Virus record (IMG/VR): IMGVR_UViG_3300043398_000271
Span: 1 to 33,046 of that record
Source of the DNA: a virus
DNA: 33,046 nucleotides
Strand: one strand, 5' to 3'
In this document: positions 22,669-25,761 of the stretch, in pieces
Numbering within the stretch: the stretch's first letter is position 1
Layout of the letters: every line of letters starts with the position of its first letter
The notes under the pieces: generated by a model
Databases searched by the model: none
What the model saw: the letters and a program-made list of their open reading frames with translations, nothing else
Told to the model about the DNA's origin: nothing
Program-made: the position numbers and the translations under genes

Positions 22669-22676
22669 AGTCTAGC
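22669..22676 (-). promoter_or_regulatory. GCTAGACT element, 7 nt before the tape measure GTG
   Basis: The element contains the TAG stop of the frameshifted chaperone. It matches the leaderless-type -10 pattern (TAGACT). Confidence 0.4.
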
Positions 22677-23321
22677 GCGCTTCGGAGAGGGCCGCGGAGA
22701 TCGTGATCTCGACGTCCTCCGCGACGTCGAGCGCAAGGTGCGCCGCCGCGACGTCCGCCATGGTCCATTCGGTCTGGATCTCGATCAGGCCCGACGAGAT
22801 CCGAGGCGAGAGGACGAGCCTCCAGAGCATCGTGTCGATCTCCGGCAGATCGAGCGCCTCGAGGGCGCGCCTTACCCGGCCGGAGTCTCGTCCCTGCGGG
22901 CGGGCGCGATCAGCGCGCCCAGCGATGCGAAAAAAGGGCCGTAGTTGACCTCCACGCACGCGCGAAGCCAGAGGAAAAACCGCGCGAAGTGTGGCCCGGC
23001 GAAGGCCTCCTCTCGGGCCGATGCCTCGGAGAGGAAGGGCGCCCGCTTCGGTGCGAACATGGCCCGGCTCGACTCCCCGAAAGCCTCTGTCAGGGCCTCG
23101 AGGGTCGCGTCGTCGAGGCGCTCGATCGCCGCGAGGGCCGCGCGCCGGAGCGCGTCAGGGGATCCGAGGCTCTCGAGCGATTTCGCTCCCGCGAGCATTT
23201 CGACGAGCGCTGGCCCGAGGGCGCGCGCCAGGACGACGAACGTCCGACGCTGGGCCTCGAATCCGAGGGGGGTGATCTCGATCGCGAGTCCGGCGATCTC
23301 GCGCCGTTCGGGGGTTCTCAT
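22672..23321 (-). CDS. Tail assembly chaperone, -1 frameshift fusion (G-T type)
   Basis: If ribosomes slip -1 at 22929-22938, the first 131 residues of the short chaperone are joined to 85 new residues (R-I-A-G-R-A-D ... L-W-R-L-V-L-S-P-R ... W-T-M-A-D-V-A-A-A-H-L-A-L). This gives 216 aa in total. The fused frame ends at 22672, ten bases before the tape measure start, and fills a gap that would otherwise be non-coding. A GT fusion made by programmed slippage is conserved in tail assembly of many phages (lambda G/GT is the model). Confidence 0.7.
22872..23321 (-). CDS. Tail assembly chaperone, short product
   Basis: This encodes 149 aa from ATG 23321. It has I-A-G-L-A-I-E-I-T-P-L-G-F-E-A-Q-R-R-T-F-V-V-L. 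A helical Ala/Leu-rich region and a C-terminal F-L-W-L-R-A-C-V-E-V-N-Y-G-P-F-F follow. This matches Mu-like tail assembly chaperones, which bind the tape measure before tube assembly. The frame stops at 22872. A slippery site sits about 55 bases upstream of that stop. A GCTACGCT element lies 7 bases before the start codon, which is coupled to the gene upstream by ATGA. Confidence 0.75.
   Translation of the reverse strand: MRTPERREIAGLAIEITPLGFEAQRRTFVVLARALGPALVEMLAGAKSLESLGSPDALRRAALAAIERLDDATLEALTEAFGESSRAMFAPKRAPFLSEASAREEAFAGPHFARFFLWLRACVEVNYGPFFASLGALIAPARRDETPAG
22929..22938 (-). other. Programmed -1 frameshift site
   Basis: The - strand reads CCC-TTTTTT-C. In the short-chaperone frame the codons are GGC-CCT-TTT-TTC. 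Both C-CCT-TTT and T-TTT-TTC fit the canonical X-XXY-YYZ heptamer. No downstream pseudoknot was sought. Confidence 0.7.
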
Positions 23322-23647: not shown

Positions 23648-23780
23648 CCCCGGAGTCTAGCACCGCGGCGCTCGCTCGCGCTTCCAGGACGCCCGCGGAG
23701 ACCCGGGCCGCCAGGTCCGCCCGGCCGCGCGCCTCGGGGGGCGTAGCGGGCCAGCGGGGCGCCGCGTCGACGGATCTCAC
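23616..23780 (-). CDS. Small ORF, 54 aa, overlapping
   Basis: The GTG at 23780 overlaps the TGA of the SGNH hydrolase (GTGA), so it would be coupled. The encoded protein is basic then Ala/Val/Gly-rich (M-R-S-V-D-A-A-P-R-W; V-H-V-P-A-G). Its third codon positions are GC-rich like real genes here. It overlaps the next gene by 32 bases. The family is not recognised. A non-coding spacer cannot be excluded. Confidence 0.45.
   Translation of the reverse strand: MRSVDAAPRWPATPPEARGRADLAARVSAGVLEARASAAVLDSGGGVVVHVPAG
23654..23661 (-). promoter_or_regulatory. GCTAGACT element, 6 nt before GTG 23647
   Basis: TGC-TAGACT as an extended -10, with 6 nt to the start. It lies inside the small upstream frame 23616-23780. 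Confidence 0.45.
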
Positions 23781-24484
23781 GGCCCTCCCGGGAGCGCCGC
23801 GAGCACCGCGCTGGCGATCGTGGACGCCATCGCCGAGTACCCGGGCGCGTCCGGGTGCATCCCGTCTGTCGACGTCGGAGCGCCCACGTCAATCAGATGC
23901 GCGCCGGCGGATAGCGCGAGCGCCGGCAGGAGCCCGTTCAGATCCTCGAAGATTTCGCGGCGGGCCCAGTGCGACGCGATCGTCGGGTTCTGCGGGACGA
24001 TCACGGTCCGAAGGAAGATCAGCGCCTGGGGGGCCCCGGCGCGCACCCACCCGATGACATCCGAGAGCGCCTCGATCGCCTGGGTCGCCGTGCGCCCCTG
24101 CGCGCCGTCCGGGAGCCCGCCGACGTCGTTGTGGCCGTAGCCGATCAGAACGAGGCGAGGATCGTAGGTCTCGCAGTCGGTCTGTACCGCGGAGGTTTGC
24201 TGGTACGCGCTGATCGCGTTGACTGCGCGATGCGCGCCGTACGCGTCCGAATAGGGACCAACGTACGTATGACCAACGCCCGCGGCGGTGAGCGCGGCAG
24301 AGAGCCCCGGGCGCCAGCCGCCGACGAATCCCTGCGCTCCGACCCCGGTCGAGTCGTCCGCGATCAGGATGCGGCCCGCGTATCGTACCCATGTCGCCAC
24401 GTCGTCACCGCCTCTTACGGTCGGAGATGCGCACCCTAATGCGCACGCCGCGAGACCGCCAACCAGCCGCCGCCTCGTGATCAT
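23777..24484 (-). CDS. SGNH/GDSL hydrolase with Tat-like and lipobox-like signal
   Basis: This encodes 235 aa from ATG 24484, sharing one base with the previous stop (TGATG). The first 20 residues combine a twin-arginine pattern (T-R-R-R-L-V) with a hydrophobic stretch ending A-L-G-C18, a possible lipoprotein site. SGNH blocks are visible: D43-D-S45-T-G, I-G-Y-G-H-N-D-V-G (block III, with G-H-N-D) and D207-G-M-H210-P. S45, D207 and H210 would form the triad. It is probably an esterase or deacetylase acting on a surface polymer outside the cytoplasm. A secreted hydrolase inside a tail operon is unusual. Confidence 0.75.
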   Translation of the reverse strand: MITRRRLVGGLAACALGCASPTVRGGDDVATWVRYAGRILIADDSTGVGAQGFVGGWRPGLSAALTAAGVGHTYVGPYSDAYGAHRAVNAISAYQQTSAVQTDCETYDPRLVLIGYGHNDVGGLPDGAQGRTATQAIEALSDVIGWVRAGAPQALIFLRTVIVPQNPTIASHWARREIFEDLNGLLPALALSAGAHLIDVGAPTSTDGMHPDAPGYSAMASTIASAVLAALPGGP

Positions 24485-25242
24485 CACGGAACCTGCGTCA
24501 CCGCGACCGCGCCCGTCTCCGTGAGCGTCGCGGAACCGAGGCGCGGAACCCACGGTCCGTCTGCGGCGTCACGTGCGACGTAGCGCGTATCCTCGCCAGG
24601 CAGCGGCGGGAGCACGAGCCTCGACCCGCTCAACATGATCGCCGCCGCATCGGCCGCGACCTGTGGGAGCGTGATCGCGGTCGGCGACGTGCACAGGGAC
24701 ACGATCCCAACGTGCTGATTCGAGAATCCACCCGCGTGCGGGTAGCGACCGAGCGTGATCTTCTCCGCCGGGTTTCCCAGCGTCCCGGCGAAGGCGGTCC
24801 CCGTCCCCACCTCGGCGCCCCCGATCGCGAGGTGTACCAAAGACCCGTCCGCCCACGCATGGAGCACGAAAAGATCCCCGACGTCACCCGCCGTGAATAC
24901 GTGGCGCGGCGTCTCGACCCAGCCTGCGTTGCCCACGATCACGGAGATTGAATCGGTGGTGCCGTTGCCGGTCTGGATCCGCCAACCGCTTTGGGTGGCG
25001 GCGATATGCGCGGCGCAGATCCGCTGCGACGAGGCTGGAAGCGAGAGCAGCCGAGCGACGAGGCGGATCGTCGCGCGCGCGCTCGGCGCAGCCGCGGCGG
25101 GGCCCTGGTAGTAGTTGGCGTCGGACCAGCCCGACGCGTAGTAGAGCCGCTCGCGCATGTCCCTGCCGGGCTCCTCCGCGAGCCCCGGGACGTGGGCCGG
25201 CGCGAGCGGGGAGGGTAGGCTGCGGTGAAGGGTGGGCGGCAT
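24484..25242 (-). CDS. LamG/concanavalin-like structural protein
   Basis: This encodes 252 aa from ATG 25242. After a Pro-rich start comes a Gly-rich jelly-roll-like core: A-R-A-T-I-R-L-V-A-R-L-L-S-L, H-V-F-T-A-G-D-V-G-D-L-F-V and V-H-L-A-I-G-G-A-E-V-G-T-G. I-T-L-G-R-Y-P-H-A-G-G-F-S-N-Q-H-V-G and a helix A-A-D-A-A-A-I-M-L-S follow. This fits a LamG-type carbohydrate-binding fold. It probably decorates the virion. It is followed by the SGNH hydrolase, whose start shares the T/A of its stop. Confidence 0.6.
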   Translation of the reverse strand: MPPTLHRSLPSPLAPAHVPGLAEEPGRDMRERLYYASGWSDANYYQGPAAAAPSARATIRLVARLLSLPASSQRICAAHIAATQSGWRIQTGNGTTDSISVIVGNAGWVETPRHVFTAGDVGDLFVLHAWADGSLVHLAIGGAEVGTGTAFAGTLGNPAEKITLGRYPHAGGFSNQHVGIVSLCTSPTAITLPQVAADAAAIMLSGSRLVLPPLPGEDTRYVARDAADGPWVPRLGSATLTETGAVAVTQVP

Positions 25243-25257: not shown

Positions 25258-25761
25258 CTAGGCCGCCGTGGCGGTCACGAGGAGCGAGCCGGGCGTGCCG
25301 GTCTCTCCGACCTCCGCGACGATGAACTGGAACCAGCGCGCGCCGGGGGCGCCCGCGAGCGACACGCCGACCGCCTGGCGGATCTCGTCACTCGCCGCGG
25401 TCGCCTCCCCCATCGGCTGCACGGCCAGCGCGCGCGTCAGCATGACGCCGGCCTGCGGGACGAGCGTGTAGTCCGCGCCGCTGGGGGCCGCGCCGGCGAT
25501 CGTGGTGGCCGTGACTACGCCGTCGATCGCGGGCAGGAAGTACCACGAATCGTCATCGGCCGCGGGCGTCTCCTCGGAGAACGACACCATGGGGAAGATC
25601 AGGGGGTAGCACCCCGCCGCGGCGGCGTCGTACGCCAGATGGAGACAGACCGCGCGCTTTTCGGCGACGGAAATGATGGCGTCGGAGCGGGAGTAGGCTC
25701 CGGAGGCCGCCAGCGCCTTTTCGGCGCCGGCGGTGTGAAACATCGGGGTGGGCGCAGCCAT
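25258..25761 (-). CDS. Hypothetical structural protein
   Basis: This encodes 167 aa from ATG 25761, three bases after the tube gene. It is Ala/Val-rich and beta-like, with A-I-D-G-V-V-T-A-T-T-I and a C-terminus W-F-Q-F-I-V-A-E-V-G-E-T-G-T-P-G. There are no charged catalytic clusters or signals. The family is not recognised. It lies between the tube and the LamG-like gene, so it may be a tail or decoration protein. Confidence 0.6.
   Translation of the reverse strand: MAAPTPMFHTAGAEKALAASGAYSRSDAIISVAEKRAVCLHLAYDAAAAGCYPLIFPMVSFSEETPAADDDSWYFLPAIDGVVTATTIAGAAPSGADYTLVPQAGVMLTRALAVQPMGEATAASDEIRQAVGVSLAGAPGARWFQFIVAEVGETGTPGSLLVTATAA

Follow-up and report, generated by a model that had tools for sequence, protein, structure and literature searches.

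A putative −1 ribosomal frameshift in the tail assembly chaperone gene of a contractile-tailed phage known from metagenomes

The linear virus record IMGVR_UViG_3300043398_000271 (33,046 nt, 70% G+C; hereafter the window, i.e., the whole stretch of DNA that was analyzed) carries a contractile-tail gene cluster on its minus strand. The tail sheath ORF (DUF3383; 27600-26224; phrog_205, E = 1e-84; PF11863, E = 2e-33), whose start codon is not fixed, served as the anchor for finding relatives and is followed by the gene for a tube-like protein (26208-25765; phrog_280, KPP10_Orf10). Several small ORFs lie between the tube and chaperone genes. There, a GDSL-type lipase/acylhydrolase gene (23777-24493, minus strand; PF13472, E = 4.6e-12) occupies a place at which related phages have no inserted gene, and its minus-strand neighbors at 24484-25242 and 25258-25761 matched no family among the phrog and Pfam profiles. 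The G-like tail assembly chaperone ORF, taken as frame 0, runs from ATG 23321 to TAA at 22874-22872 and encodes 149 aa. The tail tape measure gene (22661-21228; phrog_8125, E = 7.1e-29), whose most likely start codon is GTG 22661, is located directly downstream of the chaperone locus and precedes the gene for a Dit-like tail protein (21231-20563; PF21821, E = 1.4e-27).

Assignment of the 23321-22872 ORF to the tail assembly chaperones, already made in the first-pass annotation, is borne out by family and fold. The ORF matches phrog_1613 (tail assembly chaperone; E = 2.6e-9), its sequence profile retrieves PDB 5IR0 (E = 5.9e-8), and its location agrees, with the tape measure gene directly downstream and the tube and sheath genes upstream. 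PF21822 (Phage_TAC_15) scores 20.5 bits (E = 7.5e-4), below its curated cutoff of 22, and the protein was therefore placed by phrog_1613 and the fold instead. An AlphaFold model of the chaperone reached a pLDDT of 85 with 37 homologues in the alignment; with two sequences only, the model was poor (pLDDT 57). 5IR0 is also the top Foldseek match of the model in the PDB, at a probability of 0.96 and an E value of only 0.098, and matching predicted viral structures include the tail assembly chaperone of LIET2 and the “tape measure chaperone” of Moogle. 5IR0 is a satellite protein, the chaperone ORF19 of PLE1, which has been reported to be structurally similar to the HK97 chaperone 2OB9 (PMC12987554). 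Its likeness to the window chaperone is one of profile and predicted fold.

In the frame of ATG 23321, the minus strand reads GGC CCT TTT TTC at 22940-22929. This stretch holds the slippery site CCCTTTTTTC (22938-22929), composed of the overlapping X XXY YYZ heptamers C CCT TTT (22938-22932) and T TTT TTC (22935-22929), both of which are phased for a −1 slip and specify an identical product (Gly-Pro-Phe-Phe-Arg). The −1 frame extension, a putative T domain (22929-22672), comprises 85 codons and a TAG stop (22674-22672), ends 10 bases before the likely tape measure start, and would bring the fusion protein to 216 aa. The two heptamers and the open frame had been described in the first-pass annotation, and their sequence, frame, and coordinates all proved correct. 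The slip site is more than a chance occurrence by run and codon rarity: TTTTTT is the sole A/T run of at least 6 in the 33-kb window, CCT and TTT are rare codons there (8.6% of Pro and 8.3% of Phe codons, respectively), and these two are the only X XXT TTZ heptamers in the 17 minus-strand ORFs of the structural region. Openness of the −1 frame is by itself weak evidence because, at 70% G+C, chance alone often yields long open frames; the window contains 203 ORFs of 60 aa or more, and chance frames of 80 to 100 open codons are frequent. The −1 frame was therefore tested against relatives.

A tblastn search with the chaperone against known phages gave no match; relatives were instead obtained via the sheath and Dit-like proteins. 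Relatives of the tape measure among viral contigs were mostly other phage types, unusable for the slip site, and scanning genome contigs for sheaths with the window protein alone retrieved no relative. For scanning, an alignment of four phage sheaths worked, whereas one of seven was too divergent. Phages were retrieved on the basis of a related sheath, chaperone, or Dit-like protein, and every one of them has a chaperone with a T-rich site at homologous codons and a −1 frame that stays open as far as, or almost as far as, the tape measure gene. At these codons, the sequence is CCCTTTTTTC in Meifeng, phiEt88, and LIET2, CCCTTTTTTT in MII_001, CCCTTTTA in DIBBI, TTTTTTC in MiCath, TTTTTTA in ctsHD2, and GTTTTT in Pseudomonas phages. 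The sheath-relative scan yielded 90 loci, 84 of them with a complete chaperone locus, and a nonredundant set of 35. Overlap windows were set by a mechanical rule, each beginning at the last −1 stop and ending at the 0-frame stop, and chance rates were taken from matched windows in other genes of the same loci. On this basis, an in-frame X XXY YYZ heptamer lies in the overlap of 33 of the 35 nonredundant relatives, compared with 13.7% expected by chance, and XXXTTTZ in 30 of the 35, compared with 2.6%; nearly all of the relatives’ heptamers fall at the same Asn-Phe/Tyr-x-Pro-Phe-Phe position. Nonconservation in relatives had been named at the outset as one observation that would speak against a frameshift; instead, the slip site is identical in the closest relative and persists as a heptamer in 33 of the 35 distant ones.

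The two nonredundant relatives whose overlap lacks a canonical X XXY YYZ heptamer are L102 and L116. L102/L119 (Acetobacteraceae) and L116 (Anaerovibrio) have a T domain in the −1 frame without that heptamer, and their slip sequence, if any, is different. A Leminorella prophage (L114/L069, one locus in two records) has an intact CCCTTTT and a −1 stop before the recognizable T domain (ELWIWRPIM...); it is perhaps a decayed prophage, or its fusion is perhaps made another way.

Homology of the extension was addressed by aligning it with known T domains, as proposed in the first-pass annotation, and the outcome is positive. A profile built from 14 T extensions, with the window left out, ranked the window −1 ORF first of 486 ORF segments (E = 0.0047), and a second profile from eight DIBBI-like extensions matched it with an E value of 6.9e-4, the next best being 1.1. 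An hhalign comparison of the window extension with T domains gave a P value of 1.9e-4 at a probability of only 48%.

Which frame is constrained can be read from the one close relative found, L002 (IMGVR_UViG_3300042539_000771), which comes from another metagenome and is 88 to 90% identical in the chaperone. On this contig (L002/L015), the chaperone is near one end and the sheath near the other, as though a circular map had been opened to make the record. The contig also has a repeated peptide unit (~GARPEVATAPEGGARAARSA in one frame; L002:1-220), not seen in the window, a few hundred bases before the chaperone. L002 keeps CCCTTTTTTCGCATCGCTGGGCGCG unchanged, whereas synonymous changes have broken the gene’s other T run, a T5 some 40 nt upstream (CGG TTT TTC in the window, CGG TTC TTT in L002). 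Before the slip site, changes by codon position number 14/5/41 in frame 0. Within the overlap, frame 0 has 0/5/1 versus 1/0/5 for the −1 frame, with five amino acid changes in the former and one in the latter, and after the 0-frame stop the −1 frame has 7/3/14. Of the 30 changes in the −1 extension, 19 are at third positions (p = 7e-4), and together they cause 10 amino acid changes, compared with a mean of 20.3 under random placement; 10 or fewer were obtained in 0 of 5,000 simulations. As judged from 30 substitutions relative to one close relative, purifying selection acts on the −1 extension as a protein. Because the codon-position pattern moves from frame 0 to frame −1, the constrained frame switches near the slip site, upstream of ATG 22830.

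The position of this switch bears on the proposal that no fusion is made and that the T domain is instead translated as a small gene of its own, from a start codon within the −1 frame, e.g., ATG 22830. Such an in-frame ATG with a preceding GGAG does exist, both are kept in L002, and several phages have the −1 ORF annotated as a separate hypothetical gene. A separate gene is nonetheless very improbable, given that the −1 frame is selected already before ATG 22830, directly after the slip site, that no Met is retained there in homologues, and that slip-site conservation across the relatives would be left without reason. We consider it equally improbable that a fusion arises from transcriptional rather than ribosomal slippage, i.e., from an extra U in some mRNAs at the T6 run. 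Uniqueness of this run in the window and the identical product expected from one inserted U would fit polymerase slippage, but DIBBI has only four T (CCCTTTTA), and L077 (CCCTTTG), L072 (CCCTTTA), and L106 (CCCTTTC) have only three. These short sites argue against it because polymerase slippage is unexpected there, whereas tandem tRNA slippage is expected; the CCC preceding the T run is also retained in many relatives. That the open −1 frame and the T run are chance products of high G+C, with no functional frameshift, has a negligible probability despite the abundance of long spurious frames in the window, since purifying selection on the −1 frame, homology of the extension to T domains, and conservation of the slip site all contradict it.

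Two elements flanking the site might stimulate slippage. Downstream, a 7-bp hairpin, GGGCGCG-CTGAT-CGCGCCC (22920-22902, minus strand), begins 8 nt past the slip site. Both the window and L002 are predicted to form it and differ there only in the loop, and about 1% of window positions have a comparable stem at such a distance. Its role is a guess because it is no more stable than shuffles matched in composition and the wider family does not share it; a search there for common RNA structure downstream of the slip site found none, and the hairpin has no counterpart at the same place. Upstream, a Shine-Dalgarno-like GGAGGT (22953-22948, minus strand) precedes the slip decamer by 9 nt. L002 retains only GAGGT, and the spacing is similar in L108 and L110 and irregular in the other relatives; since it is irregular among those having the element, a stimulatory role for GGAGGU stays possible on weak grounds, again as a guess. 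An Rfam search returned no match.

Taken together, the sequence evidence makes it very probable that this locus specifies a short and a long form of its tail assembly chaperone through −1 ribosomal frameshifting, like lambda G/GT. The first-pass annotation had presented the G-GT arrangement as seen directly. The arrangement stands, by frame, selection, homology, and conservation, whereas “directly” does not, because the evidence is sequence rather than a demonstrated fusion protein; we therefore infer the −1 slippage itself, as well as its rate, the roles of stimulators, and the protein contacts. The majority of ribosomes would stay in frame 0 and produce the 149-aa short form. A minority would move one base backward at CCC-UUU-UUU-C, where a Pro/Phe or Phe/Phe tRNA pair would re-pair in the −1 frame, perhaps aided by the hairpin 8 nt downstream and the upstream GGAGGU, and would then pass the 0-frame stop to yield the 216-aa form with its C-terminal T domain. 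By analogy with lambda, many short copies may coat the tape measure, and few long copies may recruit the tail tube subunit. In a more elaborate and rather doubtful scheme, the overlapping heptamers would act as one tandem slippery decamer, with a GC hairpin at an unusually short distance tuning it to set the short-to-long ratio, and L102/L119 and L116 would make their fusions via a different, undescribed slip sequence.

For this phage, the gene model is corrected to one gene with two products. From the survey, a −1 frameshift of this kind, left unannotated, seems to extend broadly through phages and prophages with DUF3383 sheaths, in which the T part is omitted from the annotation or named hypothetical. 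The principle is a well-known phage trick, to which this high-G+C metagenomic phage adds only a further instance.

Lambda slips at G GGA AAG, whereas the window phage bears a sheath, i.e., has a contractile tail, and would slip at C CCU UUU UUC; the likeness to lambda G/GT is in the arrangement. The gpG/gpGT tail assembly chaperone frameshift of lambda has been reviewed (PMC5009743). The same arrangement has been inferred computationally in related Vandenendeviridae and Andersonviridae phages, with a conserved frameshift site GTTTTT (PMC12846349). The window shares with them the phrog_1613 family, the codon position after Asn-Phe/Tyr-Gly, and an aligned T domain, and differs in its canonical double heptamer CCCTTTTTTC. 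The record of Pseudomonas phage M5.1 has the chaperone annotated as a joined coding sequence (CDS). A joined frameshift CDS is present in no record of the DIBBI/phiEt88-type myophages (Xanthomonas phage DIBBI, Erwinia phage phiEt88, Pantoea phage LIET2, and Hafnia phage Meifeng). In the records of phiEt88, ctfzr933, LIET2, DIBBI, MII_001, and MiCath (L022-L026, L031), the T part is either unlisted or a separate hypothetical gene, and none is joined. Within the literature collection searched, no paper dealt with a DIBBI frameshift or with CCCTTTT in a tail assembly chaperone. The chaperones of the DIBBI/phiEt88-type phages are about 14 to 20% identical to that of the window, which differs from these phages in having several ORFs, one of them the GDSL hydrolase, between tube and chaperone. 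Their gene order (sheath, tube, chaperone, T, tape measure, Dit-like) is that of the window, and so is their slip site, CCCTTTTTTC or CCCTTTT.
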